64,000 bases of DNA from Dicyema japonicum (taxonomy: Eukaryota; Dicyemida; Rhombozoa; Dicyemidae). The notes under the pieces were generated by a model, which was not told the origin of the DNA, did not search any database, and worked only from the letters and a program-made list of their open reading frames with translations. The position numbers were made by a program, and so were the translations under genes. Positions 1 to 56,025 of this stretch are shown here, piece by piece. Location: contig RDEW01000007.1 of the NCBI GenBank assembly GCA_011109175.1, positions 681,712 through 745,711 of the forward strand, given 5' to 3'. Each line of letters opens with the position of its first letter. Positions within the stretch are counted from its first letter, which is position 1.

Positions 1-3000
1 TACCTCGAATAACCAGACAACAACTGCTAATAACACAGGCACAAGCTTAAATAACCAGACAACAACAGCAACGAACACAGGCAGTACGACCATTAACCAG
101 ACTACAATAGGAACTAATACAAGAACCACGTCTAATAAACAGATTACAACAGCAACAAACACAGTCTATACGTCAAATAACCCGACTACAAATTCAACTA
201 ACATAGGCAACACCTCCAAAAACCAGACTACACCAGTAATTACTACAAGCACAACCTCCAATTATCACACTACAAAAATACCTATTACTTCTTCTTTAGG
301 TATGATTTTTGATAACAAATAGCATCGTATAATGGGACTACATCTAATAAGCAGACAACAACGTCAACTAACACAGGCACTACCGCGAATAATCAGACAA
401 CACCAGCATCAAATCCAAGCACTACCTCCAATAACCAGACAACAACATCAACAAATACAGACACTACATCAAATAACCAAACAACAACTGCATCTAACAC
501 AGGCACAAAATCCAATAACCAGACAACAACAGCAACTAGCACTAGCACAACCTCTAATAACCAGATAACAACGTCAACCTACACAGGCACTACCGCGAAT
601 AATCAGACAACAACAGCATCAAATCCAAGCACTACCTCCAATAACCAGACAACAACATCAACAAATACAGACACTACATCGAATAACCAAACAACAACTG
701 CATCTAACACAGGAACAAAATCCAATAACAATACAACAAGAGCAATTAACACAGGCTCTACGTCAAATAACCAGACAACAACTGCTAATAACACAGGCAC
801 AAGCTTTAATACCCAGTCAACATCAGCAACTAACACATACACAGACCAATAACCAGAGAACAACTGCAACAAACAAAGGAATAACTACCAATAACAAAAC
901 TACGACTGCCAATAATACAAGCACTACCTCGAAGAACAATGCAACAACAGCGACTAACACAGGCTCTACGTCAAATAACCGACTACTACTTTAACTAACA
1001 CAGGCACCATGTCGAATAACCAGACTACACCAGTATTTACTACAAGCACAACCTCCAATAATCACACTACAAATTATCCAACAACTTCTTCAGGTTTGCT
1101 TTTTGATAACAAATAGCATATAATAATGGCACTACATCGAATAACCAGACAACTATAGCAACTAACACAGGCACAACGACCAATAACCAGAGTACAACTG
1201 CAACAAACAATGGAATAACAACTAATAACAAAACTACTATAGCCAATAATACAAGCACTACCTCGAATAACAATACAACAACAGCAACTAACACAGGGAC
1301 AACGACCAATAACCAGAGTACAACTGCAACAAATAATGGAATTACGACCAATAACAAAACTACTACATCCAATAATACAAGCACTACATCGAATAACCAG
1401 ACAATAACTGCAACTAATACAGGCACTATCTCGAATAACCAGACAACAACTGCTAATAACACAGGCACAACCTTAAATAACCAGACAACATCGACAACTA
1501 AAACAGACACAACGACCAACAACCAGAGTACAACTGCAACAAACAAAGGAATAACGACCAATAACATAACTACGACAGCCAATAATACAAGCACTACCTG
1601 GAAGAACAATGCAACAACAGCAACTAACACAGGCTCTACGTCAAATAACCAGACTACAACTTCAACTAACACAGGCACCACGTCGAATAACCAGACTACA
1701 CCAGTAATTTCTACAAGAACAACCTTCAATAATCAGACTACAAATAAACCAACCAATTCTTCTTCAGGTTTGCTTTTTGATAACAAATAGCACATAATAA
1801 TGGCACTACATCTAATAACCCGACTACAACTTCAGATAACACAGGCACCACGTCGAATAACCAGACTACATTAGTAATAACTACAAGCTCAACCACAATA
1901 ATCAGACTACAAATAAACAAACTACTTCTTCTTCAGGTTTACTTTTTGATAACATATAGCATATAATAATGGCACTACCTCGAATAACCAGACAACAACT
2001 GCTAATAACACAGGCACAAGCTTAAATAACCAGACAACAACAGCAACGAACACAGGCAGTACGACCATTAACCAGACTACAATAGGAACTAATACAAGAA
2101 CCACGTCTAATAAACAGATTACAACAGCAACAAACACAGTCTATACGTCAAATAACCCGACTACAAATTCAACTAACATAGGCAACACCTCCAAAAACCA
2201 GACTACACCAGTAATTACTACAAGCACAACCTCCAATTATAACACTACAAAATACCTATTACTTCTTCTTTAGGTATGATTTTGATAACAAATAGCATAT
2301 AATAATGGCACTACATCGAATAACCAGATAACAACGTCAACTAACACAGGCACTACCGCGAATAATCAGACAACACCAGCATCAAATCCAAGCACTACCT
2401 CCAATAACCAGACAACAACATCAACAAATACAGACACTACATCAAATAACCAAACAACAACTGCATCTAACACAGGCACAAAATCCAATAACCAGACAAC
2501 AACAGCAACTAGCACTAGCACAACCTCTAATAACCAGATAACAACGTCAACCTACACAGGCACTACCGCGAATAATCAGACAACAACAGCATCAAATCCA
2601 AGCACTACCTCCAATAACCAGACAACAACATCAACAAATACAGACACTACATCGAATAACCAAACAACAACTGCATCTAACACAGGAACAAAATCAATAA
2701 CAATACAACAAGAGCAACTAACACAGGCTCTACGTCAAATAACCAGACAACAACTGCTAATAACACAGGCACAAGCTTTAATACCCAGTCAACATCAGCA
2801 ACTAACACATACACAACGACCAATAACCAGAGAACAACTGCAACAAACAAAGGAATAACTACCAATAACAAAACTACGACTGCCAATAATACAAGCACTA
2901 CTCGAAGAACAATGCAACAACAGCGACTAACACAGGCTCTACGTCAAATAACCCGACTACTACTTTAACTAACACAGGCACCATGTCGAATAACCAGACT

Positions 3001-6000
3001 ACACCAGTATTTACTACAAGCACAACCTCCAATAATCACACTACAAATTATCCAACAACTTCTTCAGGTTTGCTTTTTGATAACAAATAGCATATAATAA
3101 TGGCACTACATCGAATAACCAGACAACTATAGCAACTAACACAGGCACAACGACCAATAACCAGAGTACAACTGCAACAAACAATGGAATAACAACTAAT
3201 AACAAAACTACTATAGCCAATAATACAAGCACTACCTCGAATAACAATACAACAACAGCAACTAACACAGGGACAACGACCAATAACCAGAGTACAACTG
3301 CAACAAATAATGGAATTACGACGCAATAACAAAACTACTACATCCAATAATACAAGCACTACATCGAATAACCAGACAATAACTGCAACTAATACAGGCA
3401 CTATCTCGAATAACCAGACAACAACTGCTAATAACACAGGCACAACCTTAAATAACCAGACAACATCGACAACTAAAACAGACACAACGACCAACAACCA
3501 GAGTACAACTGCAACAAACAAAGGAATAACGACCAATAACAATAACTACGACAGCCATAATACAAGCACTACCTGGAAGAACAATGCAACAACAGCAACT
3601 AACACAGGCTCTACGTCAAATAACCAGACTACAACTTCAACTAACACAGGCACCACGTCGAATAACCAGACTAACACAGTAATTTCTACAAGAACAACCT
3701 TCAATAATCAGAACTACAAATAAACCAACCAATTCTTCTTCAGGTTTGCTTTTTGATAACAATAGCACATAATAATGGCACTACATCTAATAACCCGACT
3801 ACAACTTCAGATAACACAGGCACCACGTCGAATAACCAGACTACATTAGTAATAACTACAAGCTCAACCACCAATAATCAGACTACAAATAAACAAACTA
3901 CTTCTTCTTCAGGTTTACTTTTTGATAACATATAGCATATAATAATGGCACTACCTCGAATAACCAGACAACAACTGCTAATAACACAGGCACAAGCTTA
4001 AATAACCAGACAACAACAGCAACGAACACAGGCAGTACGACCATTAACCAGACTACAATAGGAACTAATACAAGAACCACGTCTAATAAACAGATTACAA
4101 CAGCAACAAACACAGTCTATACGTCAAATAACCCGACTACAAATTCAACTAACATAGGCAACACCTCCAAAAACCAGACTACACAGTAATTACTACAAGC
4201 ACAACCTCCAATTATCACACTACAAATACCTATTACTTCTTCTTTAGGTATGATTTTTGATAACAAATAGCATCGTATAATGGGACTACATCTAATAAGC
4301 AGACAACAACGTCAACTAACACAGGCACTACCGCGAATAATCAGACAACACCAGCACAAATCCCAAGCACTACCTCCAATAACCAGACCAACAACATCAA
4401 CAAATACAGCACTACATCAAATAACCAAACAACCAACTGCATCTAACAACAGGCACAAAATCCATAACCAGACAACAACAGCAACTAGCACTAGCACAAC
4501 CTCTAATAACCAGATAACAACGTCAACCTACACAGGCACTACCGGCGAATAATCAGACAACAACAGCATCAAATCAAGCACTACTCCAATAACCAGACAA
4601 ACAACATCAACAAATACAGACACTACATCAAATAACCAAACAACAACTGCATCTACACAGGCACAAAATCCAATAACCAGACAACAACAGAACTAGCACT
4701 AGCCAACCTCTAATAACCAGATAACAACGTCAACGCTACACAGGCACTACCGCGAATAATCAGACAACAACAGCTCAATCCAAGCACTACCTCCAATAAC
4801 CAGACAACAACATCAACAAATACAGACACTACATCGAATAACCAAACACAACTTCATCTAACACAGGATCAAATCCAATAACAATACAACAAGAGCAATT
4901 AACACAGGCTCTACGTCAAATAACAGACAACAACTGCTAATAACACAGGCACAAGTTTTAATACTCAGTCAACATCAGCAACTAACACATACACAACGAC
5001 CAATAACAGAGAACAACTGCACAAACAAAGGAATAACTACCAATAACAAAAACTACGACTGCCAATAATACAAGCACTACCTCGAAGAACAATGCAACAA
5101 CAGCGACTAACACAGGCTCTACGTCAAATAACCCGACTACTACTTAACTAACACAGGCACCATGTCGAATAACCAGACTACACCAGTATTTACTACAAGC
5201 ACAAACCTCCAATAATCACACTACAAATTATCCAACAACTTCTTCAGGTTTGCTTTTTTGATAACAAATAGCATATAATAATGGCACTACATCGAATAAC
5301 CAGACAACTATAGCAAACTAACACAGGCACAACGACCAATAACCAGAGTACAACTGCACAAACAATGGAATAACAACTAATAACAAAACTACTATAGCCA
5401 ATAATACAAGCACTACCTCGAATAACAATACAACAACAGCAACTAAACACAGGGACACGACCAATAACCAGAGTACAACTGCAACAATATGGAATTACGA
5501 CCAATAACAAAACTACTACATCCAATAATACAAGCACTACACGAATAACCAGACAATAATGAACTAATACAGGCACTATCTCGAATAACAGAACAACAAC
5601 TGCTAATAACACAGGCACAACCTTAAATAACCAGACAACATCGACAACTAAAACAGACCAAAACCAAGCAGCACACAACACCAGAATACAACTGCAAACA
5701 AACAAAGGAATAACGACCAATAACATAACTACGAACAGCCAATAATACAAGCACTACCTGGAAGAACAATGCAACAACAGCAACTAACACAGGCTCTACG
5801 TCAATAACCAGACTACAACTTCAACTAACACAGGCCACCACGTCGAATAACCAGACTACACCAGTAATTTCTACAAAGAACAACCTTCAATAATCAGACT
5901 ACAAATAAACCAACCAATTCTTCTTCAGGTTTGCTTTTTGATAACAAATAGCACATAATAATGGCACTACATCTAATAACCCGACTACAACTTCAGATAA

Positions 6001-9000
6001 CACAGGCACCACGTCGAATAACCAGACTACATTAGTATAAACTACAAGCTCAACCACCAATAATCAGACTACAATAAACACTACTTCTTCTTCAGGTTTA
6101 CTTTTGATAACATATAGCATATAATAATGGCACTACCTCGAATAACCAGACAACAACTGCTAATAACACAGGCACAAGCTTAAATAACCAGACAACAACA
6201 GCAACGAACACAGGCAGTACGACCATTAACCAGACTACAATAGGAACTAATACAAGAACCACGTCTAATAAACAGATTACAACAGCAACAAACACAGTCT
6301 ATACGTCAAATAACCCGACTACAAATTCAACTAACATAGGCAACACCTCCAAAAACCAGACTACACCAGTAATTACTACAAGCACAACCTCCAATTATCA
6401 CACTACAAAAATACCTATTACTTCTTCTTTAGGTATGATTTTTTGATAACAAATAGCATCGTATAATGGGACTACATCTAATAAGCAGACAACAACGTCA
6501 ACTAACACAGGCACTACCGCGAATAATCAGACAACACAGCATCAAATCCAAGCACTACCTCCAATAACCAGACAACAACATCAACAAATACAGACACTAC
6601 ATCAAATAACCAAACAACAACTGCATCTAACACAGGCACAAAATCCAATAACCAGACAACAACAGCAACTAGCACTAGCACAACCTCTAATAACCAGATA
6701 ACAACGTCAACCTACACAGGCACTACCGCGAATAATCAGACAACAACAGCATCAAATCCAAGCACTACCTCCAATAACCAGACAACAACATCAAACAAAT
6801 ACAGACACTACATCGAATAACCAAACAACAACTTCATCTAACACAGGAACAAAATCCAATAACAATACAACAAGAGCAATTAAACACAGGCTCTACGTCA
6901 AATAACCAGACAACAACTGCTAATAACACAGGCACAAGCTTTTAATACCAGTCCATCAGCAACTAACACATACACAACGACCAATAACCAGAGAACAACT
7001 GCAACAAACAAAGGAATAACTAAATAACAAAACTACGACTGCCAATAATACAAGCACTACCTCGAAGAACAATGCAACAACAGCGACTAACACAGGCTCT
7101 ACGTCAAATAACCCGACTACTACTTTAACTAACACAGGCACCATGTCGAATAACCAGACTACACGCAGTATTTACTACAAGCACAACCTCCAATAATCAC
7201 ACTACAAATTATCCAACAACTTCTTCAGGTTTGCTTTTTGATAACAAATAGCATATAATAATGGCACTACATCGAATAACCAGACAACTATAGCAACTAA
7301 CACAGGCAACAACGACCAATAACCAGAGTACAACTGCAACAAACAATGGAAAACAACTAATAACAAAACTACTATAGCCAATAATACAAGCACTACCTCG
7401 AATAACAATACAACACAGCACTACACACAGGGACAACGACCAATAACCAGAGTACAACTGCAACAAATATGGAATTACGACCATAACAAAACTACTACAT
7501 CCAATAATACAAGCACTACATCGAATAACCAGACAATAACTGCAACTAATACAGGCACTATCTCGAATAACCAGACAACAACTGCTAATAACACAGGCAC
7601 AAGCTTTAATACCCAGTCAACATCAGCAACTAACACATACACAACGACCAATAACCAGAGAACAACTGCAACAAACAAAGGAATAACTACCAATAACAAA
7701 ACTACGACTGCCAATAATACAAGCACTACCTCGAAGAACAATGCAACAACAGCGACTAACACAGGCTCTACGTCAAATAACCCGACTACTACTTTAACTA
7801 ACACAGGCACCATGTCGAATAACCAGACTACACCAGTATTTACTACAAGCACAACCTCCAATAATCACACTACAAATTATCCAACAACTTCTTCAGGTTT
7901 GCTTTTTGATAACAAATAGCATATAATAATGGCACTACATCGAATAACCAGACAACTATAGCAACTAACACAGGCACAACGACCAATAACCAGAGTACAA
8001 CTGCAACAAACAATGGAATAACAACTAATAACAAAACTACTATAGCCAATAATACAAGCACTACCTCGAATAACAATACAACAACAGCAACTAACACAGG
8101 GACAACGACCAATAACCAGAGTACAACTGCAACAAATAATGGAATTACGACCAATAACAAAACTACTACATCCAATAATACAAGCACTACATCGAATAAC
8201 CAGACAATAACTGCAACTAATACAGGCACTATCTCGAATAACCAGACAACAACTGCTAATAACACAGGCACAAGCTTAAATAACCAGACAACAACAGCAA
8301 CGAACACAGGCAGTACGACCATTAACCAGACTACAATAGGAACTAATACAAGAACCACGTCTAATAAACAGATTACAACAGCAACAAACACAGTCTATAC
8401 GTCAAATAACGCGACTACAAATTCAACTAACATAGGCAACACCTCCAAAAACCAGACTACACCAGTAATTACTACAAGCACAACCTCCAATTATCACACT
8501 TACAAAAATACCTATTACTTCTTCTTTAGGTGATGATTTTGATAACAAATAGCATCGAAATGGGACTACATCTAATAAGCAGACAACAACGTCACTAACA
8601 CAGGCACTACCGCGAATAATCAGACAACACCAGCATCAAATCCAAGCACTACCTCCAATAACCAGACAACAACATCAACAAATACAGACACTACATCAAA
8701 TAACCAAACAACAACTGCATCTAACACAGGCACAAAATCCAATAACCAGACAACAACAGCAACTAGCACTAGCACAACCTCTAATAACCAGATAACAACG
8801 TCAACCTACACAGGCACTACCGCGAATAATCAGACAACAACAGCATCAAATCCAAGCACTACCTCCAATAACCAACAAACAACATCAACAAATACAGACA
8901 CTACATCGAATAACCAAACAACAACTGCATCTAACACAGGAACAAAATCCAATAACAATACAACAAGAGCAATTAAACACAGGCTCTACGTCAAATAAAC

Positions 9001-12000
9001 CAGACAACAACTGCTAATAACACAGGCACAAGCTTTAATTACCCAGTCAACATCAGCAACTAACATATACACAACGACCAATAACCAGAGAACAACTGCA
9101 ACAAACAAAGGAATAACTACCAATAAACAAAACTACGACTGCCAATAATACAAGCACTACCTCGAAGAACAATGCAACAACAGCGACTAACACAGGCTCT
9201 ACGTCAAATAACCCGACTACTACTTTAACTAAACACAGGCACCATGTCGAATAAACCAGACTACACCAGTATTTACTACAAGCACAACCTCCAATAATCA
9301 CACTACAAATTATCCAACAACTTCTTCAGGTTTGCTTTTTGATAACAAATAGCATATAATAATGGCACTACATCGAATAACCAGACAACTATAGCAACTA
9401 ACACAGGCACAACGACCAATAACCAGAGTACAACTGCAACAAACAATGGAATAACAACTAATAACAAAACTACTATAGCCAATAATACAAGCACTACTCG
9501 AATAACAATACAACAACAGCAACTAACACAGGGACAACGACCAATAACCAGAGTACAAACTGCAACAAATAATGGAATTACGACCAATAACAAAACTACT
9601 ACATCCAATAATACAAGCACTACATCGAATAACCAGACAATAACTGCAACTAATACAGGCACTATCTCGAATAACCAGACAACAACTGCTAATAACACAG
9701 GCACAACCTTAAATAACCAGACAACATCGACAACTAAAACAGACACAACGACCAACAACCAGAGTACAACTGCAACAAACAAAGGAATAAACGACCAATA
9801 ACATAACTACGACAGCCAATAATACAAGCACTACCTGGAAGAACAATGCACAACAGCAACTAACACAGGCTCTACGTCAAATAACCAGACTACAACTTCA
9901 AACTAACACAGGCACCACGTCGAATAACCAGACTACACCAGTAATTTCTACAAGAACAACCTTCAATAATCAGACTACAAATAAACCAACCAATTCTTCT
10001 TCAGGTTTGCTTTTGATAACAAATAGCACATAATAATGGCACTACATCTAATAACCCGACTACAACTTCAGATAACACAGGCACCACGTCGAATAACCAG
10101 ACTACATTAGTAATAACTACAAGCTCAACCACCAATAATCAGACTACAAATAAACAAACTACTTCTTCTTCAGGTTTACTTTTTTGATAACATATAGCAT
10201 ATAATAATGGCACTACCTCGAATAACCAGACAACAAAACTGCTAATAAACACAGGCACAAGCTTAAATAACCAGACAACAACAGCAAACGAACACAGGCA
10301 GTACGACCATTAACCAGACTACAATAGGAACTAATACAAGAACCACGTCTAATAAACAGATTACAACAGCAACAAAAACACAGTCTATACGTCAAATAAC
10401 CCGACTACAAATTCAACTAACATAGGCAACACCTCCAAAAAACCAGACTACACCAGTAATTACTACAAGCACAACCTCCAATTATCACACTACAAAAATA
10501 CCTATTACTTCTTCTTTAGGTATGATTTTGATAAACAAATAGCATCGTATAATGGACTACATCTAATAAGCAGACAACAACGTCAACTAACACAGGCACT
10601 ACCGCGAATAATCAGACAACACCAGCATCAAATCCAAGCACTACCTCCAATAACCAGACAACAACATCAACAAATACAGACACTACATCAAATAACCAAA
10701 CAACAACTGCATCTAACACAGGCACAAAATCCAATAACCAGACAACAACAGCAACTAGCACTAGCACAACCTCTAATAACCAGATAACAACGTCAACCTA
10801 CACAGGCACTACCGCGAATAATCAGACAACAACAGCATCAAATCCAAGCACTACCTCCAATAACCAGACAACAACATCAACAAAATACAGACACTACATC
10901 GAATAACCAAACAACAACTGCATCTAACACAGGAACAAATCCAATAACAATACAACAAGAGCAATTAACACAGGCTCTACGTCAAATAACCAGACAACAA
11001 CTGCTAATAACACAGGCACAAGCTTTAATACCCAGTCAACATCAGCAACTAACACATACACAACGACCAATAACCAGAGAACAACTGCAACAAACAAAGG
11101 AATAACTACCAATAACAAAACTACGACTGCCAATAATACAAGCACTACCTCGAAGAACAATGCAACAACAGCGACTAACACAGGCTCTACGTCAAATAAC
11201 CCGACTACTACTTTAACTAACACAGGCACCATGTCGAATAACCAGACTACACCAGTATTTACTACAAGCACAACCTCCAATAATCACACTACAAATTATC
11301 CAACAACTTCTTCAGGTTTGCTTTTTGATAACAAATAGCATATAATAATGGCACTACATCGAATAACCAGACAACTATAGCAACTAACACAGGCACAACG
11401 ACCAATAACCAGAGTACAACTGCAACAAACAATGGAATAACAACTAATAAAAAACTACTATAGCCAATAATACAAGCACTACCTCGAATAACAATACAAC
11501 AACAGCAACTAACACAGGGACAACGACCAATAACCAGAGTACAACTGCAACAAATAATGGAATTACGACCAATAACAAAACTACTACATCCAATAATACA
11601 AGCACTACATCGAATAACCAGACAATAACTGCAACTAATACAGGCACTATCTCGAATAACCAGACAACAACTGCTAATAACACAGGCACAACCTTAAATA
11701 ACCAGACAACATCGACAACTAAAACAGACACAACGACCAACAACCAGAGTACAACTGCAACAAACAAAGGAATAACGACCAATAACATAACTACGACAGC
11801 CAATAATACAAGCACTACCTGGAAGAACAATGCAACAACAGCAACTAACACAGGCTCTACGTCAAATAACCAGACTACAACTTCAACTAACACAGGCACC
11901 ACGTCGAATAACCAGACTACACCAGTAATTTCTACAAGAACAACCTTCAATAATCAGACTACAAATAAACCAACCAATTCTTCTTCAGGTTTGTTTTGAT

Positions 12001-15000: not shown

Positions 15001-18000
15001 GCAACTAACACATACACAACGACCAATAACCAGAGAACAACTGCAACAAACAAAGGAATAACTACCAATAACAAAACTACGACTGCCAATAATACAAGCA
15101 CTACCTCGAAGAACAATGCAACAACAGCGACTAACACAGGCTCTACGTCAAATAACCCGACTACTACTTTAACTAACACAGGCACCATGTCGAATAACCA
15201 GACTACACCAGTATTTACTACAAGCACAACCTCCAATAATCACACTACAAATTATCCAACAACTTCTTCAGGTTTGCTTTTGATAACAAATAGCATATAA
15301 TAATGGCACTACATCGAATAACCAGACAACTATAGCAACTAACACAGGCACAACGACCAATAACCAGAGTACAACTGCAACAAACAATGGAATAACAACT
15401 AATAACAAAACTACTATAGCCAATAATACAAGCACTACCTCGAATAACAATACAACAACAGCAACTAACACAGGGACAACGACCAATAACCAGAGTACAA
15501 CTGCAACAAATAATGGAATTACGACCAATAACAAAACTACTACATCCAATAATACAAGCACTACATCGAATAACCAGACAATAACTGCAACTAATACAGG
15601 CACTATCTCGAATAACCAGACAACAACTGCTAATAACACAGGCACAACCTTAAATAACCAGACAACATCGACAACTAAAACAGACACAACGACCAACAAC
15701 CAGAGTACAACTGCAACAAACAAAGGAATAACGACCAATAACATAACTACGACAGCCAATAATACAAGCACTACTGGAAGAACAATGCAACAACAGCAAC
15801 TAACACAGGCTCTACGTCAAATAACCAGACTACAACTTCAACTAACACAGGCACCACGTCGAATAACCAGACTACACCAGTAATTTCTACAAGAACAACC
15901 TTCAATAATCAGACTACAAATAAACCAACCAATTCTTCTTCAGGTTTGCTTTTTGATAACAAATAGCACATAATAATGGCACTACATCTAATAACCCGAC
16001 TACAACTTCAGATAACACAGGCACCACGTCGAATAACCAGACTACATTAGTAATAACTACAAGCTCAACCACCAATAATCAGACTACAAATAAACAAACT
16101 ACTTCTTCTTCAGGTTTACTTTTTGATAACATATAGCATATAATAATGGCACTACCTCGAATAACCAGACAACAACTGCTAATAACACAGGCACAAGCTT
16201 AAATAACCAGACAACAACAGCAACGAACACAGGCAGTACGACCATTAACCAGACTACAATAGGAACTAATACAAGAACCACGTCTAATAAACAGATTACA
16301 ACAGCAACAAACACAGTCTATACGTCAAATAACCCGACTACAAATTCAACTAACATAGGCAACACCTCCAAAAACCAGACTACACCAGTAATTACTACAA
16401 GCACAACCTCCAATTATCACACTACAAAAATACCTATTACTTCTTCTTTAGGTATGATTTTTGATAACAAATAGCATCGTATAATGGGACTACATCTAAT
16501 AAGCAGACAACAACGTCAACTAACACAGGCACTACCGCGAATAATCAGACAACACCAGCATCAAATCCAAGCACTACCTCCAATAACCAGACAACAACAT
16601 CAACAAATACAGACACTACATCAAATAACCAAACAACAACTGCATCTAACACAGGCACAAAATCCAATAACCAGACAACAACAGCAACTAGCACTAGCAC
16701 AACCTCTAATAACCAGATAACAACGTCAACCTACACAGGCACTACCGCGAATAATCAGACAACAACAGCATCAAATCCAAGCACTACCTCCAATAACCAG
16801 ACAACAACATCAACAAATACAGACACTACATCGAATAACCAAACAACAACTGCATCTAACACAGGAACAAAATCCAATAACAATACAACAAGAGCAATTA
16901 ACACAGGCTCTACGTCAAATAACCAGACAACAACTGCTAATAACACAGGCACAAGCTTTAATACCCAGTCAACATCAGCAACTAACACATACACAACGAC
17001 CAATAACCAGAGAACAACTGCAACAAACAAAGGAATAACTACCAATAACAAAACTACGACTGCCAATAATACAAGCACTACCTCGAAGAACAATGCAACA
17101 ACAGCGACTAACACAGGCTCTACGTCAAATAACCCGACTACTACTTTAACTAACACAGGCACCATGTCGAATAACCAGACTACACCAGTATTTACTACAA
17201 GCACAACCTCCAATAATCACACTACAAATTATCCAACAACTTCTTCAGGTTTGCTTTTTGATAACAAATAGCATATAATAATGGCACTACATCGAATAAC
17301 CAGACAACTATAGCAACTAACACAGGCACAACGACCAATAACCAGAGTACAACTGCAACAAACAATGGAATAACAACTAATAACAAAACTACTATAGCCA
17401 ATAATACAAGCACTACCTCGAATAACAATACAACAACAGCAACTAACACAGGGACAACGACCAATAACCAGAGTACAACTGCAACAAATAATGGAATTAC
17501 GACCAATAACAAAACTACTACATCCAATAATACAAGCACTACATCGAATAACCAGACAATAACTGCAACTAATACAGGCACTATCTCGAATAACCAGACA
17601 ACAACTGCTAATAACACAGGCACAACCTTTAAATAACCAGACAACATCGACAACTAAAACAGACACAACGACCAACAACCAGAGTACAACTGCAACAAAC
17701 AAAGGAATAACGACCAATAACATAACTACGACAGCCAATAATACAAGCACTACCTGGAAGAACAATGCAACAACAGCAACTAACACAGGCTCTACGTCAA
17801 ATAACCAGACTACAACTTCAACTAACACAGGCACCACGTCGAATAACCAGACTACACCAGTAATTTCTACAAGAACAACCTTCAATAATCAGACTACAAA
17901 TAAACCAACCAATTCTTCTTCAGGTTTGCTTTTTGATAACAAATAGCACATAATAATGGCACTACATCTAATAACCGACTACAACTTCAGATAACACAGG

Positions 18001-21000: not shown

Positions 21001-24000
21001 CAATGCAACAACAGCGACTAACACAGGCTCTACGTCAAATAACCCGACTACTACTTTAACTAACACAGGCACCATGTCGAATAACCAGACTACACCAGTA
21101 TTTACTACAAGCACAACCTCCAATAATCACACTACAAATTATCCAACAACTATCTTCAGGTTTGCTTTTTGAAACAAATAGCATATAATAATGGCACTAC
21201 ATCGAATAACCAGACAACTATAGCAACTAACACAGCACAACGACCAATAACCAGAGTACAACTGCAACAAACAATGGAATAACAAACTAATAACAAAACT
21301 ACTATAGCCAATAATACAAGCACTACCTCGAATAACAATACAACAACAGCAACTAACACAGGACAACGACCAATAACCAGAGTACAACTGCAACAAATAA
21401 TGGAATTACGCACAATAACAAAACAAACTACATCCAATAATACAAGCACTACATCGAATAGACAAAACTGCAACTAATACAGGCACTATCTCGAATAACC
21501 AGACAACAACTGCTAATAACACAGGCACAAGCTTAAATAACCAGACAACAACAGCAACGAACACAGGCAGTACGACCATTAACCAGACTACAATAGGAAC
21601 TAATACAAGAACCACGTCTAATAAACAGATTACAACAGCAACAAACACAGTCTATACGTCAAATAACGCGACTACAAATTCAACTAACATAGGCAACACC
21701 TCCAAAAAACCAGACTACACCAGTAATTACTACAAGCACAACCTCCAATTATCACACTACAAAAATACCTATTACTTCTTCTTTAGGTATGATTTTTGAT
21801 AACAAATAGCATCGTATAATGGGACTACATCTAATAAGCAGACAACAACGTCAACTAACACAGGCACTTACGCGAATAATCAGACAACACCAGCAACAAA
21901 TCCAAGCACTACCTCCAATAACCAGACAACAACATCAACAAATACAGACACTACATCAAATAACCAAACAACAACTGCATCTAACACAGGCCACAAAATC
22001 CAATAACCAGACAACAACAGCAAACTAGCACTAGCACAACCTCTAATAACCAGATAACAACGTCAACCTACACAGGCACTACCGCGAATAATCAGACAAC
22101 AACAGCATCAAATCAAGCACTACCTCCAATAACCAGACAAACAACATCAACAAATACAGACACTACATCGAATAACCAAACAACAACTGCATCTAACACA
22201 GGAACAAATCCAATAACAATACAACAAGAGCAATTAACACAGGCTCTACGTCAAATAACCAGACAACAACTGCTAATAACACAGGCACAAGCTTTAATAC
22301 CCAGTCAACATCAGCAACTAACACATACACAACGACCAATAACCAGGAGAACAACTGCAACAAACAAAGGAATAACTACCAATAACAAAACTACGACTGC
22401 CAATAATACAAGCACTACCTCGAAAAACAATGCAACAACAGCGACTAACACAGGCTCTACGTCAAATAACCCGACTACTACTTTAACTAACACAGGCACC
22501 ATGTCGAATAACCAGACTACACCAGTATTTACTACAAGCACAACCTCCAATAATCACACTACAAATATATCCAACAACTTCTTCAGGTTTGCTTTTTGAT
22601 AACAAATAGCATATAATAATGGCACTACATCGAATAACCAGACAACTATTAGCAACTAACACAGGCACAACGACCAATAACCAGAGTACAACTGCAACAA
22701 ACAATGGAATAACAACTAATAACAAAAACTACTATAGCCAATAATACAAGCACTACCTCGAATAACAATACAACAACAGCAACTAACACAGGGACAACGA
22801 CCAATAACCAGAGTACAACTGCAACAAATAATGGAATTACGACCAATAACAAAACTACTACATCCAATAATACAAGCACTACATCGAATAACCAGACAAT
22901 AACTGCAACTAATACAGGCACTATCTCGAATAACCAGACAACAACTGCTAATAACACAGGCACAACCTTAAATAACCAGACAACATCGACAACTAAAACA
23001 GACACAACGACCAACAACCAGAGTACAACTGCAACAAACAAAGGAATAACGACCAATAACATAACTACGACAGCCAATAATACAAGCACTACCTGGAAGA
23101 ACAATGCAACAACAGCAACTAACACAGGCTCTACGTCAAATAACCAGACTACAACTTCAACTAACACAGGCACCACGTCGAATAACCAGACTACACCAGT
23201 AATTTCTACAAGAACAACCTTCAATAATCAGACTACAAATAAACCAACCAATTCTTCTTCAGGTTTGCTTTTTGATAACAAATAGCACATAATAATGGCA
23301 CTACATCTAATAACCCGACTACAACTTCAGATAACACAGGCACCACGTCGAATAACCAGACTACATTAGTAATAACTACAAGCTCAACCACCAATAATCA
23401 GACTACAAATAAACAAACTACTTCTTCTTCAGGTTTACTTTTTGATAACATATAGCATATAATAATGGCACTACCTCGAATAACCAGACAACAACTGCTA
23501 ATAACACAGGCACAAGCTTAAATAACCAGACAACAACAGCAACGAACACAGGCAGTACGACCATTAACCAGACTACAATAGGAACTAATACAAGAACCAC
23601 GTCTAATAAACAGATTACAACAGCAACAAACACAGTCTATACGTCAAATAACCCGACTACAAATTCAACTAACATAGGCAACACCTCCAAAAACCAGACT
23701 ACACCAGTAATTACTACAAGCACAACCTCCAATTATCACACTACAAAAAATACCTATTACTTCTTCTTTAGGTATGATTTTTGATAACAAATAGCATCGT
23801 ATAATGGGACTACATCTAATAAGCAGACAACAACGTCAACTAACACAGGCACTACCGCGAATAATCAGACAACACCAGCATCAAATCCAAGCACTACCTC
23901 CAATAACCAGACAACAACATCAACAAATACAGACACTACATCAAATAACCAAACAACAACTGCATCTAACACAGGCACAAAATCCAATAACCAGACAACA

Positions 24001-27000
24001 ACAGCAACTAGCACTAGCACAACCTCTAATAACCAGATAACAACGTCAACCTACACAGGCACTACCGCGAATAATCAGACAACAACAGCATCAAATCCAA
24101 GCACTACCTCCAATAACCAGACAACAACATCAACAAATACAGACACTACATCGAATAACCAAACAACAACTGCATCTAACACAGGAACAAAATCCAATAA
24201 CAATACAACAAGAGCAATTAACACAGGCTCTACGTCAAATAACCAGACAACAACTGCTAATAACACAGGCACAAGCTTTAATACCCAGTCAACATCAGCA
24301 ACTAACACATACACAACGACCAATAACCAGAGAACAACTGCAACAAACAAAGGAATAACTACCAATAACAAAACTACGACTGCCAATAATACAAGCACTA
24401 CCTCGAAGAACAATGCAACAACAGCGACTAACACAGGCTCTACGTCAAATAACCCGACTACTACTTTAACTAACACAGGCACCATGTCGAATAACCAGAC
24501 TACACCAGTATTTACTACAAGCACAACCTCCAATAATCACACTACAAATTATCCAACAACTTCTTCAGGTTGCTTTTTTGATAACAAATAGCATATAATA
24601 ATGGCACTACATCGAATAACCAGACAACTATAGCAACTAACACAGGCACAACGACCAATAACCAGAGTACAACTGCAACAAACAATGGAATAACAACTAA
24701 TAACAAAACTACTATAGCCAATAATACAAGCACTACCTCGAATAACAATACAACAACAGCAACTAACACAGGGACAACGACCAATAACCAGAGTACAACT
24801 GCAACAAATAATGGAATTACGACCAATAACAAAACTACTACATCCAATAATACAAGCACTACATCGAATAACCAGACAATAACTGCAACTAATACAGGCA
24901 CTATCTCGAATAACCAGACAACAACTGCTAATAACACAGGCACAACCTTAAATAACCAGACAACATCGACAACTAAAACAGACACAACGACCAACAACCA
25001 GAGTACAACTGCAACAAACAAAGGAATAACGACCAATAACATAACTACGACAGCCAATAATACAAGCACTACCTGGAAGAACAATGCAACAACAGCAACT
25101 AACACAGGCTCTACGTCAAATAACCAGACTACAACTTCAACTAACACAGGCACCACGTCGAATAACCAGACTACACCAGTAATTTCTACAAGAACAACCT
25201 TCAATAATCAGACTACAAAAAACCAACCAATTCTTCTTCAGGTTTGCTTTTTGATAACAAATAGCACATAATAATGGCACTACATCTAATAACCCGACTA
25301 CAACTTCAGATAACACAGGCACCACGTCGAATAACCAGACTACATTAGTAATAACTACAAGCTCAACCACCAATAATCAGACTACAAATAAACAAACTAC
25401 TTCTTCTTCAGGTTTACTTTTTGATAACATATAGCATATAATAATGGCACTACCTCGAATAACCAGACAACAACTGCTAATAACACAGGCACAAGCTTAA
25501 ATAACCAGACAACAACAGCAACGAACACAGGCAGTACGACCATTAACCAGACTACAATAGGAACTAATACAAGAACCACGTCTAATAAACAGATTACAAC
25601 AGCAACAAACACAGTCTATACGTCAAATAACCCGACTACAAATTCAACTAACATAGGCAACACCTCCAAAAACCAGACTACACCAGTAATTACTACAAGC
25701 ACAACCTCCAATTATCACACTACAAAAATACCTATTACTTCTTCTTTAGGTATGATTTTTGATAACAAATAGCATCGTATAATGGGACTACATCTAATAA
25801 GCAGACAACAACGTCAACTAACACAGGCACTACCGCGAATAATCAGACAACACCAGCATCAAATCCAAGCACTACCTCCAATAACCAGACAACAACATCA
25901 ACAAATACAGACACTACATCAAATAACCAAACAAACAACTGCATCTAACACAGGCACAAAATCCAATAACCAGACAACAACAGCAACTAGCACTAGCACA
26001 ACCTCTAATAACCAGATAACAACGTCAACCTACACAGGCACTACCGCGAATAATCAGACAACAACAGCATCAAATCCAAGCACTACCTCCAATAACCAGA
26101 CAACAACATCAACAAATACAGACACTACATCGAATAACCAAACAACAACTGCATCTAACACAGGAACAAAATCCAATAACAATACAACAAGAGCAATTAA
26201 CACAGGCTCTACGTCAAATAACCAGACAACAACTGCTAATAACACAGGCACAAGCTTTAATACCCAGTCAACATCAGCAACTAACACATACACAACGACC
26301 AATAACCAGAGAACAACTGCAACAAACAAAGGAATAACTACCAATAACAAAACTACGACTGCCAATAATACAAGCACTACCTCGAAGAACAATGCAACAA
26401 CAGCGACTAACACAGGCTCTACGTCAAATAACCCGACTACTACTTTAACTAACACAGGCACCATGTCGAATAACCAGACTACACCAGTATTTACTACAAG
26501 CACAACCTCCAATAATCACACTACAAATTATCCAACAACTTCTTCAGGTTTGCTTTTGATAACAAATAGCATATAATAATGGCACTACATCGAATAACCA
26601 GACAACTATAGCAACTAACACAGGCACAACGACCAATAACCAGAGTACAACTGCAACAAACAATGGAATAACAACTAATAACAAAACTACTATAGCCAAT
26701 AATACAAGCACTACCTCGAATAACAATACAACAACAGCAACTAACACAGGGACAACGACCAATAACCAGAGTACAACTGCAACAAATAATGGAATTACGA
26801 CCAATAACAATACTACATCCAATAATACAAGCACTACATCGAATAACCAGACAATAACTGCAACTAATACAGGCACTATCTCGAATAACCAGACAACAAC
26901 TGCTAATAACACAGGCACAACCTTAAATAACCAGACAACATCGACAACTAAAACAGACACAACGACCAACAACCAGAGTACAACTGCAACAAACAAAGGA

Positions 27001-30000
27001 ATAACGACCAATAACATAACTACGACAGCCAATAATACAAGCACTACCTGGAAGAACAATGCAACAACAGCAACTAACACAGGCTCTACGTCAAATAACC
27101 AGACTACAACTTCAACTAACACAGGCACCACGTCGAATAACCAGACTACACCAGTAATTTCTACAAGAACAACCTTCAATAATCAGACTACAAATAAACC
27201 AACCAATTCTTCTTCAGGTTTGCTTTTTGATAACAAATAGCACATAATAATGGCACTACATCTAATAACCCGACTACAACTTCAGATAACACAGGCACCA
27301 CGTCGAATAACCAGACTACATTAGTAATAACTACAAGCTCAACCACCAATAATCAGACTACAAATAAACAAACTACTTCTTCTTCAGGTTTACTTTTTGA
27401 TAACATATAGCATATAATAATGGCACTACCTCGAATAACCAGACAACAACTGCTAATAACACAGGCACAAGCTTAAATAACCAGACAACAACAGCAACGA
27501 ACACAGGCAGTACGACCATTAACCAGACTACAATAGGAACTAATACAAGAACCACGTCTAATAAACAGATTACAACAGCAACAAACACAGTCTATACGTC
27601 AAATAACCCGACTACAAATTCAACTAACATAGGCAACACCTCCAAAAACCAGACTACACCAGTAATTACTACAAGCACAACCTCCAATTATCACACTACA
27701 AAAATACCTATTACTTCTTCTTTAGGTATGATTTTTGATAACAAATAGCATCGTATAATGGGACTACATCTAATAAGCAGACAACAACGTCAACTAACAC
27801 AGGCACTACCGCGAATAATCAGACAACACCAGCATCAAATCCAAGCACTACCTCCAATAACCAGACAACAACATCAACAAATACAGACACTACATCAAAT
27901 AACCAAACAACAACTGCATCTAACACAGGCACAAAATCCAATAACCAGACAACAACAGCAACTAGCACTAGCACAACCTCTAATAACCAGATAACAACGT
28001 CAACCTACACAGGCACTACCGCGAATAATCAGACAACAACAGCATCAAATCCAAGCACTACCTCCAATAACCAGACAACAACATCAAACAAATACAGACA
28101 CTACATCGAATAACCAAACAACAACTGCATCTAACACAGGAACAAAATCCAATAACAACAACAACAGCAACTAAACACAGGCCTACGTCAATAACCAGAC
28201 AACAACGTCAATACACAGGCCAACTAATACCCAGTCAATAATCAGACAACAACACATACAAACAGCACTACCTCCAATAACCAGACACAACTGCAAACAA
28301 ACAACACTACATCGAATAACCAAACAACAACTCACTCTAAACAGGATCAGATCCAAGAACAATAACAAGAGCGACTTAACACAGGCTCTACGTCAAATAC
28401 AGACAACAACTGCTAATAACACAGGCACAAGTTTTTAATACCTCAGTCAACATCAGCAACTAACCATACACAACGAAAAACCAGAGAACAACTGCAACAA
28501 ACAAAGGAATAACTACCAATAACAAAACTACGACTGCCAATACAAGCACTACCTCGAATAGACAATGCAACAACAGCGACTAACACAGGCTCTACGTCAA
28601 ATAACCCGACTACTACTTTATACTAACACAGGCACCATGTCGAATAACCAGACTACAACCAGTATTTACTACAAGCACAAACCTCCAATAATCACACTAC
28701 AAATTATCCAACAACTTCTTCAGGTTTGCTTTTTGATAACAAATAGCATATAATAATGGCACTACATCGAATAACCAGACAACTATAGCAACTAACACAG
28801 CACAACGACCAATAACCAGAGTACAACTGCAACAAACATGGAATACAATAAATAACAAAATACTATAGCCAATAATACAAGCACTACTCGAATAACAATA
28901 CAACACAGCAACTAACACAGGCTCTACGTCAAATAACCCGACTACAACTTCAACTAACACAGGCACCACGTCGAATAACCAGACTACACAAGTAATTTCT
29001 ACAAGAACAACCTTCAATAATCAGACTACAAATAAACAACCAATTCTTCTTCAGGTTTGCTTTTTGATAACAAATAGCACATAATAATGAACTACATCTA
29101 ATAACCCGACTACAACTTCAGATAACACAGGCACCACGTCGAAATAACCAGACTACATTAGTAATAACTACAAGCTCAACCGAATAATCAGACTACAAAT
29201 AAACAAACTACTTCTTCTTCAGGTTTACTTTTTGATAACATATAGCATATAATAATGGCACTACTCGAATAACCAGACAACAACTGCTAATAACACAGGG
29301 CACAAGCTTAAATAACCAGACAACAACAGCAACGAACACAGGCAGTACGACCATTAACCAGACTACATAGGAACTCAATACAAGAACCACGTCTAATAAA
29401 CGATTACAACAGCAACAAACACAGTCTATACGTCAAATAACCCGACTACAAATTCAACTAACATAGGCAACACCTCCAAAAACCAGACTACACAGTAATT
29501 ACTACAAGCACAACCTCCAATTATCACACTACAAAAATACCTATTACTTCTTCTTTAGGTATGATTTTTTGATAACAAATAGCATGTATAATGGGACTAC
29601 ATCTAATAAGCAGACAACAACGTCAACTAACACAGGCACTACCGCGAATAATCAGACAACACCAGCATCAAATCCAAGCACTACCTCCATAACCAGACCA
29701 ACACCATCAACAAATACAGACACTACATCAAATAACCAAACAACAACTGCATCTAACACAGGCACAAAATCAATAACCAGACAACAACAGCAACTAGCAC
29801 TAGCACACCTCTAATAACCAGATAACAACGTCAACCTACACAGGCACTACCGCGAATAATCAGACAACAACAGCATCAAATCCAAGCACTACCTCCAATA
29901 ACCAGACAAACATCAACAATACAGACACTACATCAATAACCAAACAACAACTGCATCTAACACAGGCACAAAATCCAATAACCAGACAACAACAGCAACT

Positions 30001-31432
30001 AGCACTAGCACAACCTCTAATAACCAGATAACAACGTCAACCTACACAGGCACATACCCGCGAATTAATCAGACAACAACATCATCAAATCCAAGCACTA
30101 CTCCAATAACCAGACAACAACATCAACAATACAGACACTACATCGAATAACCAAACAACAACTTCATCTAACACAGGACAAAATCCAATAACATACAACA
30201 AGAGCAATTAACACAGGCTCTACGTCAAATAACCAGACAACAACTGCTAATAACACAGGCACAAGCTTTAATACTCCAGTCAACATCAGCAACTAACACA
30301 TACACAACGACCAATAACCAGAGAAACTGCAACAAACAAAGGAATAACTACCAATAACAAAACTACGACTGGCCAATAATACAAGCACTACCTCGAAGAA
30401 CAATGCAACAACAGCGACTAACACAGGCTCTACGTCAAATAACCCGACTACTACTTTAACTAACACAGGCACCATGTCGAATAACCAGACTACACCAGTA
30501 TTTACTACAAGCACAACCTCCAATAATCACACTACAAATTATCCAACAACTTCTTCAGGTTTGCTTTTTTGATAACAAATAGCATATAATAATGGCACTA
30601 CATCGAATAACCAGACAACTATAGCAACTAACACAGGCACAACGACCAATAACCAGAGTACAACTGCAACAAACAATGGAATAACAACTAATAACAAAAC
30701 TACTATAGCCAATAATACAAGCACTACCTCGAATAACAATACAACAACAGCAACTAACACAGGGCTCTACGACCAATAACCAGACTACAACTTCAACTAT
30801 CACAGGCACCACGTCGAATAACCAGACTACACAAGTAATTTCTACAAGAACAACCTTCAATAATCAGACTACAAATAAACCAACCAATTCTTCTTCAGGT
30901 TTGCTTTTTGATAACAAATAGCACATAATAATGGCACTACCTCGAATAACCAGACAACAACTGCTAATAACACAGGCACAAGCTTAAATAACCAGATAAC
31001 AACAGATGCTAACACACCTACTACATCTAATACTCATACAAGAGCATATAATACAAGCACAGCATCGAATAACCAGTCTACAAATAATCCAACTACTAAT
31101 TTATCATCTTATACTACTATTTCAGATTCTACACATTTTTTTAATAGTTAAAATTCTATAATTTTTTAGCTACTATTTTTTCGAATTCTACTTTTTCTAC
31201 ACCTTTTATTCCTTCTGGTTTTTTTGGATTTTATCATTTTAGACAATTTTAGTCTATCTTCAAAGCTTCTTGCAATTATTCTTCCAATTGTTTTTATCAT
31301 TCTTTTTTCTATAATACTCTTTTTTCTGTCGGCGTCGGTTATTATTTTTTTTATTTTAGACGTAATAGGCGTAATTTCAATAAATCCTTCGTTTTGAATA
31401 ATTCGTTTTTCGAATTTTCGACTTATCTGTGA
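1..31432 (+). CDS. Giant mucin-like, Thr/Asn/Gln-rich type I membrane protein (5' end outside window), with about 63 mini-introns
   Basis: The predicted surface glycoprotein is about 10,000 residues within the window. Removing 60 short GT-AG segments (mostly 23 nt; 21-24 nt in copies with indels) joins all blocks into one frame of 14-residue motifs such as GTTSNNQTTTANNT. Each motif usually carries an N-Q-T sequon and about half Thr/Ser, as expected of a mucin stalk with N- and O-glycans. Introns start at 300, 1094, 1768, 1937, 2274, 3068, 3744, 3913, 4248, 5248, 5929, 6096, 6433, 7229, 7897, 8530, 9330, 10005, 10174, 10520, 11316, 11989, 12157, 12496, 13294, 13969, 14138, 14475, 15272, 15944, 16114, 16452, 17249, 17924, 18093, 18389, 19185, 19855, 20024, 20362, 21160, 21787, 22587, 23263, 23433, 23772, 24569, 25242, 25412, 25750, 26548, 27218, 27388, 27726, 28724, 29055, 29223, 29559, 30559 and 30899, then 31147, 31218 and 31334. 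The last exons encode a transmembrane helix and a basic tail ending in TGA at 31430. Scattered 1-2 nt indels break the raw frame and look like sequencing errors. No family is recognised beyond the mucin-like composition. Confidence 0.8.
1117..1767 (+). other. Reference exon C of the mucin unit (217 codons, 15 motifs)
   Basis: A clean 651-nt copy with linker A-Y-N-N, fifteen 14-residue motifs and S-S-S. It includes two near-identical internal blocks with the N-N-G-I-T-T variant, a sign of earlier motif duplication. Both boundaries are phase 1. This exon is the usual partner in the chimeric exons of the array. Confidence 0.85.
4271..5247 (+). repeat. Expanded exon B, about five extra 42-nt motifs
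   Basis: This exon B copy is 977 nt instead of 774. A block of about five motifs is present twice, and many single-base indels account for the inexact multiple of 42. The indel density is far above that of neighbouring units. Confidence 0.7.
7252..7896 (+). repeat. Chimeric exon: 5' part of exon C joined to 3' part of exon B
   Basis: The exon starts as C. Near 7600 it switches, within a shared motif stretch (GCTAATAACACAGGCAC), to the late part of exon B, and it ends with a type 1 intron. The motif register is kept. Confidence 0.8.
7920..8529 (+). repeat. Chimeric exon: 5' part of exon C joined to exon A
   Basis: It starts as exon C and continues into exon A near 8265, so intron 2, exon D and intron 3 are missing from this unit. 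The switch again lies inside a shared motif. Confidence 0.8.
15967..16113 (+). other. Reference exon D of the mucin unit (49 codons, 3 motifs)
   Basis: A clean 147-nt copy, the shortest exon: linker A-H-N-N, three 14-residue motifs, S-S-S. Both boundaries are phase 1. It is absent from the units at 7.9-8.5 kb and 21.2-21.8 kb, where exon C runs directly into exon A. Confidence 0.85.
16114..16136 (+). other. 23-nt intron, type 3 (exon D to exon A)
   Basis: It starts GTTTAC, contains TGATAAC (close to the classical branch sequence TACTAAC) and ends ATATAG. If retained, it is read in phase 1 as a short peptide closed by its own terminal TAG. Confidence 0.85.
16452..16474 (+). other. 23-nt intron, type 4 (exon A to exon B)
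   Basis: It starts GTATGA, contains TGATAAC and ends AAATAG. The flanking exon bases are TTTAG and CATCGT. Retention also ends translation at the terminal TAG. Confidence 0.85.
16475..17248 (+). other. Reference exon B of the mucin unit (258 codons, 18 motifs)
   Basis: A clean 774-nt copy; 23795-24568 is another. The linker A-S-Y-N is followed by eighteen 14-residue motifs and S-S. It is the longest exon and the one that most often gains motifs; the copies at 4271 and 29583 are about 200 nt longer. Both boundaries are phase 1. Confidence 0.85.
17249..17271 (+). other. 23-nt intron, type 1 (exon B to exon C)
   Basis: It starts GTTTGC, contains TGATAAC and ends AAATAG, followed by the exon start CATATAATAATGG. 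Its removal restores the motif frame across the junction (T-T-S-S then A-Y-N-N-G). Confidence 0.87.
17924..17946 (+). other. 23-nt intron, type 2 (exon C to exon D)
   Basis: Identical in sequence to the type 1 intron, although it sits in a different position in the unit. It is followed by the exon start CACATAATAATGG. Confidence 0.87.
18116..18388 (+). repeat. Exon A lacking exactly one 42-nt motif
   Basis: The exon is 273 nt instead of 315. The second motif is precisely absent and the rest matches the consensus, so the frame is preserved. Confidence 0.85.
21182..21786 (+). repeat. Second exon C-to-exon A chimera
   Basis: It has the same join as the copy at 7920-8529, leaving out exon D and two introns. 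The switch lies near 21522. Its 5' half has many indels. The shared junction suggests that one rearranged unit was later copied. Confidence 0.75.
25435..25749 (+). other. Reference exon A of the mucin unit (105 codons, 7 motifs)
   Basis: A clean 315-nt copy. The first two bases complete a codon split by the upstream intron, giving an A-Y-N-N linker. Seven 14-residue motifs follow, ending in S-S-L plus the first base of the next codon. Both ends are phase 1, so the exon can be duplicated or skipped without shifting the frame. It holds the most divergent motifs of the unit, including one starting V-Y-T-S. Confidence 0.85.
28747..29054 (+). repeat. Shortened exon C, about 8 motifs missing
   Basis: This copy is 308 nt instead of 651. 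The last exon C (30583-30898, 316 nt) carries a very similar contraction, so the two units nearest the 3' end share a derived short form. Confidence 0.75.
29583..30558 (+). repeat. Expanded exon B, about five extra motifs
   Basis: This copy is 976 nt instead of 774. The motif block ending in the ACTAGCACTAGCAC variant is present twice, as in the expanded copy at 4271. Confidence 0.7.
31147..31169 (+). other. 23-nt intron after the array
   Basis: It starts GTTAAA and ends TTTTAG. Without removal the frame stops at once, because its first bases give an in-frame TAA. With removal the frame continues (…F-F-N-T-T-I-F-S). Confidence 0.75.
31218..31242 (+). other. 25-nt intron before the transmembrane exon
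   Basis: T-rich, starting GTTTTTTTGG and ending ATTTTAG. Its removal in phase 1 joins I-P-S to D-N-F-S-L, just upstream of the hydrophobic helix. Confidence 0.7.
31334..31359 (+). other. 26-nt intron between transmembrane helix and cytoplasmic tail
   Basis: It starts GTCGGTTATT and ends TTTTAG. This choice gives L-S-A-R-N-R-R directly after the helix, a typical stop-transfer patch. A donor 5 nt downstream (22-nt intron) is also possible and would end the protein after S-A-S-T. Confidence 0.55.
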
Positions 31433-50495: not shown

Positions 50496-50549
50496 CTAAT
50501 TTTAAAGCGTCCGAGAGATTCGAAGGGATTAAATGAAGTCAATTTTCCA

Positions 50550-52771: not shown

Positions 52772-52899
52772 TAAAATAAATCGTTTTTAATAGATTTTTT
52801 CTTTTTATAACGTTCTTGGTTATTTGCTAATGTAACTGCAATTTAAATTTTTCAATAATAGGTTTTCAAGAATTTTATAAGGCGGAAGTAGTCTTATTT

Positions 52900-53394: not shown

Positions 53395-53665
53395 TGTCGT
53401 GCCAGATTTTGCCAAGGTCCTCGACATCTTTAGCTAAAAAGTCATCTTTTTTAAATTTTATAAAAATTCATTTTATCGGGTCTATAGGTAAGTGGAACAT
53501 TTTACCAAGGTATTCGACATTTTTAGGTAAAAAAAGTCATTTTTTTAAATCTTATAAAAATTGATTTTAAGGAGTCCTATAAGTAAGTGGAACATTTTGC
53601 CAAGGTCCTCAACATCTTTAGCTAAAAAGTCATCTTTTTTAAATCTTATAAAAATTGATTTTATG
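53395..53665 (+). repeat. Three tandem copies of a 95-bp AT-rich repeat
   Basis: CCAAGGTCCTCGACATCTTT-like landmarks recur at about 53410, 53504 and 53599, each followed by AAAAAGTCAT and TTATAAAAATT. Inverted copies occur at 55830-56025. Confidence 0.85.
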
Positions 53666-55829: not shown

Positions 55830-56025
55830 GGAAGACCTTGGTAAAATGTTTCACTTACCCATAAAACCCGTTAAAATCATTTTTTATAATATTTAAAAAA
55901 GATGACTTTTTACCTAAAAATGTCGAGGACCTTGGTAAAATGTTCCACTTACCCATAGGACCCCTTAAAATCAATTTTTTATAAGATTTAAAAAAGATGA
56001 TTTTTTACCTAAAGATGTCGTTTCG
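55830..56025 (-). repeat. Inverted copies of the 95-bp repeat
   Basis: Two copies, read on the minus strand as AAGTGGAACATTTTACCAAGG-type sequence with TCGACATTTTTAGG, match 53395-53665 in reverse orientation. The pair is about 2.6 kb apart end to end. AGGCCATTTTGAATGGA-type short repeats follow at 56080-56130. Confidence 0.8.

Follow-up and report, generated by a model that had tools for sequence, protein, structure and literature searches.

Can one gene carry dozens of nearly identical introns of minimal size, copied together with the exons that they separate, and still be read as a single coding sequence? The question is raised by a stretch of 64,000 nucleotides from the dicyemid Dicyema japonicum (the window; C159:681712-745711 in an assembly of 64.67 Mb and 191 contigs), the first ~31 kb of which is taken up by a tandem array whose coding motif is 42 nt long. 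An earlier note on this DNA had read the short segments that interrupt the array as about 60 near-identical 23-nt introns of a tandemly amplified mucin gene. In our analysis the most likely reading of the locus is a giant gene of mucin-like type, with 73 of its 76 short introns belonging to one family. The window region would hold most of this gene, which would span ~36 kb from start codon to stop and, judging by its coordinates, encode ~11,500 residues.

A pattern scan of the window returned 60 matches, 57 of them in the array, against 6.2 expected in a shuffled window, an expectation that does not convert to a p-value because the array copies are non-independent events. A looser search of the entire array found 70 segment copies, 57 of which begin within the window, and the long gaps of the array gave three additional degraded copies, bringing the array-type segments to 73 (60 in the window and 13 upstream of it). 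Their lengths as read are 23 nt (57 copies), 22 nt (eight), 24 nt (seven) and 21 nt (one). Together with the exons they mark a regular higher-order unit of four exons and four introns, in which intact exon copies of 147, 315, 774 and 651 nt and four introns of 23 nt sum to 1,979 nt; GTTTGCTTTTTGATAACAAATAG occurs twice per unit, GTTTACTTTTTGATAACATATAG once and GTATGATTTTTGATAACAAATAG once. Ten of the 16 unit-start spacings fall at 1,974-1,984 and the other six are 2,185, 4,076, 1,931, 3,408, 1,837 and 1,844. These results confirmed both the number of segments and the presence of four per 1,979-bp unit, and the two segments that had been named, 16114/16136 and 17249/17271, are exact. The proposed extent of ~31 kb is correct for the window, but the window edge cuts the array: its first copy lies at C159:676917 (window -4794), ~4.8 kb upstream of the window, and the start codon of the gene at C159:676805 (window -4906). 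At its 3' limit the array ends with the intron at 30899-30921, after which come two introns of different sequence. Scans of the window against Rfam (gathering threshold) and for tRNAs gave no match. The array and a representative unit are laid out as follows.

1..30921, plus strand: array of 42-nt coding motifs with 60 array-type predicted introns of ~23 nt in the window; extends to window -4794
1117..1767, plus strand: 651-nt exon copy, open as read
15944..15966, plus strand: predicted intron a1 of the representative unit, GTTTGCTTTTTGATAACAAATAG, followed by CACATAAT
15967..16113, plus strand: 147-nt exon, starting HNNGTTSNNPTTTSDNTGTTSNNQ; motif frame open as read
16114..16136, plus strand: predicted intron b, GTTTACTTTTTGATAACATATAG
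16137..16451, plus strand: 315-nt exon; motif frame open as read
16452..16474, plus strand: predicted intron c, GTATGATTTTTGATAACAAATAG
16475..17248, plus strand: 774-nt exon; motif frame open as read
17249..17271, plus strand: predicted intron a2, GTTTGCTTTTTGATAACAAATAG, followed by CATATAAT (the 651-class exon copy after 17271 has 652 nt and is not open)
30899..30921, plus strand: last array-type predicted intron

Every array junction reads G/CA and is of phase 1. Retention of a segment leads to a stop within the segment itself in 61 of 70 copies, the exceptions being seven 22-nt and two 23-nt copies. The proposal that excision preserves the motif frame holds for intact copies, while more than half of the exons as read carry length differences of 1-2 nt. 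The commonest lengths in their own classes are 147 nt (9 copies) and 315 nt (6 copies); in the 774 class 772 nt (4 copies) is commoner than 774 nt (3 copies), and in the 651 class 650 and 652 nt (3 copies each) are commoner than 651 nt (2 copies), so that in two of the four classes the commonest length is not a multiple of three. As read, an open frame is present in each of the three 774-nt copies and the two 651-nt copies and in none of the four 772-nt copies. Among the 69 inter-intron exons, 32 are divisible by three as read and 37 are not. The motif frame is open in 21 of the 32 and either other frame in none, whereas the 37 are open in the motif frame in seven cases and in another frame in two (both 775 nt). 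Since three does not divide the length of 37 of the 69 exons and 11 of the remaining 32 have no open frame, the assembly contains no long open spliced frame; one whole unit translated as read has five stops in its best spliced frame, and these come from its 771-nt exon. In the window gene a stop in the frame of the array also lies between the first intron and the array, and the start codon is out of frame as read.

Silent-site comparisons between motif copies favor the spliced frame. With motifs located by DNA and their first codons dropped, pN/pS in the window (n=19) was 0.51 in the spliced frame versus 1.78 and 0.88 in the other frames, and in the paralogue described below (n=73) 0.74 versus 1.06 and 1.31, a weaker contrast. 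Another run, in which window motifs were located by in-frame residues, a selection that itself favors the spliced frame, gave a stronger contrast (window 0.43 versus 1.55 and 1.00; paralogue 0.52 versus 1.16 and 1.41). Taken at the level of sequence, the segments behave as spliceosomal introns, as had been proposed: they have GT-AG ends and a single phase, their removal restores one frame in intact copies, and their retention usually brings in a stop. We accordingly treat them as predicted spliceosomal introns, a status that their agreement in length with the introns of conserved genes also supports.

That agreement was observed in two sets of genes. Spliced alignment of eight chaperonin (PF00118) loci in the same assembly yielded 60 introns, 24 of which measure 23 nt (the mode) and 56 of which are no longer than 30 nt. 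The four longer introns may be errors, since the aligner was limited to 15-70 nt and a single CCT4 profile was used for all eight loci, of which only CCT4 was identified by protein search. A ninth chaperonin-type locus, cpn60-looking, was excluded from this count; the gene at C115:78100-80500, which looks like mitochondrial cpn60, has introns of 25 and 21 nt in its aligned part. Two aldolase genes contributed ten introns of 23-27 nt, seven of them 23 nt long. The top aldolase match was Dicyema acuticephalum (75% identity over 100%), and the other full-coverage matches among those listed had 49-62% identity. The aldolase comparison identifies the animal as a dicyemid. A protein search with the CCT4 exon gave animals as its best named matches, with no dicyemid among the matches listed. 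A COX1 search of the assembly returned no match, and a PAX family search returned matches. An array intron of 23 nt thus has the length found most often in the chaperonin and aldolase genes; its size is ordinary for this animal, and the extraordinary character ascribed to it is not supported. Published values point the same way. For the dicyemids compared (Dicyema acuticephalum, D. japonicum and Dicyema sp.), reports give introns of 26.2 +/- 1.9 nt (n=16 introns; PMC2222250), a median of 27 bp with two thirds below 30 bp (PMC6543705) and, in D. japonicum, a mean of 38.2 bp in a genome of 67.5 Mb (PMC6736024). The short introns of these reports resemble those of the array in size, while tandem amplification of one intron is absent from the descriptions in the available parts of the reports. 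The TGATAAC core occurs in none of the 56 short chaperonin introns and seems peculiar to this one amplified intron.

The earlier note had also seen a difficulty in how a spliceosome would pair the right donor and acceptor among identical neighbors. The T content is 0.435 in array introns, 0.400 in chaperonin introns and 0.161 in array exons. The density of GT..AG segments 21-26 nt long that contain 10 or more T is 0.00 per kb in array exons and 1.01 per kb in chaperonin exons, rising to 3.11 and 23.87 per kb with no limit on T. Exactly one AG ends within 18-50 nt of 69 of 70 donors, and for these 69 the next AG after their own lies 52-68 nt from the donor; 67 of 70 acceptors likewise have exactly one GT in a like range. 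With one AG within reach of 69 of 70 donors, pairing needs little beyond a size limit and the puzzle becomes mild. It would be more notable, on this reading of the sequence, that exon skipping is frame-silent and retention is not.

Downstream of the array the gene continues through two introns that are not of the array type to a hydrophobic last exon.

30922..31146, plus strand: exon after the array, with the last motifs and a Ser/Thr-rich stalk
31147..31169, plus strand: 23-nt predicted intron of non-array sequence, GTTAAAATTCTATAATTTTTTAG; the paralogue counterpart has 22 nt and is diverged
31170..31217, plus strand: 48-nt stalk exon
31218..31242, plus strand: 25-nt predicted intron, GTTTTTTTGGATTTTATCATTTTAG; the paralogue differs at one position
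31243..31397, plus strand: last exon, with hydrophobic segment KLLAIILPIVFIILFSIILFFLSAS...

The hydrophobic segment of the last exon is a probable C-terminal membrane anchor, and the exact C-terminus is uncertain because the paralogues differ in homopolymer lengths in this exon. A third 3' intron of 22 nt (31338-31359) was considered and rejected, its removal giving immediate stops. A composite unit of 629 residues contains 39.3% Thr, 21.6% Asn, 11.8% Ser, 1.9% Pro and no Cys, with 54 N-x-S/T sequons. Membrane-anchored mucins as a class have a Thr/Ser-rich tandem repeat, a hydrophobic start and a C-terminal hydrophobic segment. The predicted protein resembles them in its Thr/Ser-rich repeat, may do so in its hydrophobic ends, and differs in its high Asn content, its 54 sequons per 629 residues, its 1.9% Pro and its lack of Cys. 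The Ser/Thr-rich tandem repeat of a membrane mucin is thus present and the Pro-rich PTS character is not, and the product is termed mucin-like rather than mucin because Pro reaches only 1.9%; the mucin identity first proposed is supported as a likeness in composition only. As read, the hydrophobic start MMWIVVILSIQITIL is in frame only in the paralogue, and the hydrophobic C-terminal exon is present in both genes. From these ends we infer a surface location, and the protein is probably membrane-anchored and heavily glycosylated. An array exon matched no Pfam family, and a protein search with a 774-nt array exon scored 8,000 candidates, none at E <= 0.001.

A search with the 3' part of the window gene found one other place among the matches listed, C159:826368, at 90% identity. 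It belongs to a paralogue at C159:821279-826720, ~108 kb downstream of the 3' end of the window gene. The two genes share the start codon, the first exon (22 nt) and the first intron (25 nt), and the paralogue has counterparts of both 3' introns, with conserved 3' exons and a conserved hydrophobic segment. The 5' end of the paralogue carries three degenerate array-type introns with a 127-bp period. Unspliced, this 5' part has stops in every frame; spliced, it stays open from the start codon through the first three junctions, those of the first intron and of two array-type introns, and its start codon joins the following stretch in frame, unlike that of the window gene as read. Once its third array-type intron is taken out, the flanking exons as read no longer agree in phase. 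The 127-bp module found at the 5' ends has the look of the seed of the array. In the repeat body of the paralogue (4,765 nt, same motif) a search found no array-type intron. The two bodies also differ in homogeneity: the best other match of a 200-nt block has a median identity of 99.5% in the window array, with 160 of 175 blocks at >=97%, and of 87.5% in the paralogue body, with three of 23 blocks at >=97%, a comparison in which the longer window array offers more places to match. Searches with the array and the 5' DNA gave no third place among the matches listed, a weak result because these searches skip common words and failed to list the window array itself.

Other features of the window were recorded alongside. 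On the minus strand at 62700-64000 lies a tubulin-tyrosine ligase-like (TTLL) gene, with PF03133 on one exon and a 21-nt intron readable by eye; the sequence at ~63740-63765 makes sense only with an intron of 11 or 18 nt, which would be very short, or with a base error. The sequence beyond the paralogue matches this TTLL gene end, minus strand, by eye, and the block therefore looks segmentally duplicated. A gene or cluster at 50500-52800 on the minus strand shows by eye a signal-like start, a Ser/Thr-rich stalk, a 25-nt intron and a C-terminal hydrophobic segment; it has a lectin-like look, and two pieces that were scanned gave no Pfam match. Non-LTR retrotransposon sequence occupies 59460-61880 on the plus strand, with an 806-residue endonuclease and reverse transcriptase frame (RVT_1, Exo_endo_phos). 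Further non-LTR retrotransposon sequence lies on the plus strand at 32433-33185 and 45275-45856, where the matches include an Exo_endo_phos_2 piece and a sub-threshold RVT_1 at 32433. Short arrays of ~94-95-bp units at 53406-53663 and 55834-56020 appear by eye to be mutual reverse complements.

The broken frames invite a quite different reading, in which the array, itself a decayed relative of the paralogue, expanded as a dead or non-coding satellite and has ceased to be translated, with its introns as fossils. Most exon copies are frame-broken as read, the start codon is not joined in frame, and homogeneity as high as that of the array blocks is also seen in satellites. The kind of difference between copies argues otherwise. 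Across 53 exon copies of the four classes (23.9 kb; restricted to copies of at least 90% identity and of the class lengths) there are 125 indels versus 51 substitutions, and 97 of the 125 indels fall in homopolymer context. This is unlike natural decay, and the excess of mostly homopolymer indels makes the differences look like consensus error. Four of nine chaperonin loci in the same assembly needed a frame step as well, and the silent-site excess in the coding frame and the conserved 3' exons and hydrophobic segment also speak against a dead array, which we judge unlikely. The assembly is noisy, and both the copy number and the frame of the array depend on it. The introns could accordingly be real and their number an assembly product, the true array being much shorter or longer, as near-identical units in a noisy assembly would allow. 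This is compatible with the giant-gene reading and strikes us as doubtful: the unit-start distances vary from 1,837 to 4,076, so the units are not a single copy pasted repeatedly, and contig C159 is 1.74 Mb long and extends on both sides of the array.

Near-identical short introns at many sites within one gene might instead be independent insertions of one mobile intron (an introner), which would put one intron into exon sites that are not homologous. Around the four unit introns the flanking exon sequences resemble one another, with a TCTTCAG/CA or TCTTTAG/CA context and, by eye, a similar preceding ~70 nt, which indicates that exon and intron were copied together, as the earlier note had supposed. 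An exact 31-nt exon-intron pattern has 26 occurrences (exact matches), all in this array, and the motif body of the paralogue lacks such introns. Insertion was therefore rejected as very improbable. Equally hard to credit, with no observation in its favor, is retention of the 23-nt segments in the message, where they would be translated or bypassed by ribosomal frameshifting; the stops that retention brings in most copies, together with the GT-AG ends and a length matching the conserved-gene introns of this animal, led us to reject it.

We therefore favor with considerable confidence a giant dicyemid gene for a Thr/Asn/Ser-rich, probably membrane-anchored, mucin-like protein, which would have arisen by duplication of a module and amplification of a block and whose minimal introns would be spliced. 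As to order and mechanism, we infer that a 5' exon carrying a single ordinary 23-nt intron was copied as an exon-intron module of ~127 bp. In the window gene, unequal exchange or conversion would then have multiplied a 1,979-bp block with four module descendants, the copies of which stayed homogeneous. The gene would be transcribed and its transcripts spliced by intron definition, with a spliceosome that takes mostly T-rich introns of 21-27 nt and T-poor exons that would leave nearly every donor one acceptor in reach. Phase-1 array introns and intact exon lengths divisible by three would let unequal exchange and exon skipping pass without loss of frame; a retained intron would usually meet a stop inside itself. 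As a speculative extension, possible rather than probable, the co-amplified introns may keep the array homogeneous and length-variable, with frame-silent exchange and skipping giving many chain lengths and intron stops removing retained transcripts.

Near-identical introns within one gene, which had been thought to lack precedent, are described for the MaSp2 silk genes of Argiope (PMC9779670) and for kringle IV-2 (KIV-2) of human LPA (PMC4378929). The Argiope introns are iterated, with a within-gene similarity averaging 97.6% (94.3-99.7%), and mark higher-order units, and intron-poor relatives have less regular repeats; flagelliform silk has repetitive homogenised introns too, as cited there (PMC9779670). 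The window gene is alike in coding for repeats and in its iterated, near-identical introns marking higher-order units. MaSp2 is a silk with one or two alternating intron types, whereas the window gene is mucin-like and has a four-intron cycle of three sequences, 23 nt long, in 73 copies. The LPA region likewise repeats near-identical exon-intron units within one gene (1 to >40), differing in its 5.5-kb units, introns of 4 kb and 1.2 kb and folded kringle domains (PMC4378929). Paramecium and other ciliates have introns of ~25 nt, with 3n introns enriched for stops on retention and intron definition thought predominant (PMC5014332); these resemble the array introns in size and retention stops and are not described as copies of one intron in the available part of that source. 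Searches of the open-access literature, by title and abstract start, gave no report of a tandemly amplified ultra-short intron and none of a dicyemid mucin gene among the matches listed, and the word 'mucin' has no occurrence in the dicyemid papers PMC6543705 and PMC6736024. Homology and near-identity extend in the window gene from the intron copies to the exons on either side, which places it among genes with co-amplified, homogenised introns. Such introns are themselves known; what is new is ultra-short ones in such number. The contrast in homogeneity with the paralogue agrees with the proposal made for Argiope silk that repeated introns favor homogenisation, and a recent expansion would explain it equally well.

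The locus unites the minimal introns of dicyemids with the architecture of intron-homogenised repeat genes, and a relative whose repeat body is free of such introns lies ~108 kb beyond its 3' end. With both oddities in one locus and this relative nearby, homogenisation and splicing fidelity become directly testable questions. One is whether repeated introns help to homogenise a gene that codes for repeats, an idea put forward for spider silk and one for which the paralogue is a natural control. The other is how faithfully a minimal-intron spliceosome works through upward of 70 introns in a row, any one of which, if retained, would normally end the protein. If the giant-gene reading is true, its message would, to our knowledge and in the literature searched, hold more near-identical ultra-short introns than any other. 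Its product would be a candidate giant surface glycoprotein of the dicyemids, parasites of octopus and squid that live in cephalopod kidneys.
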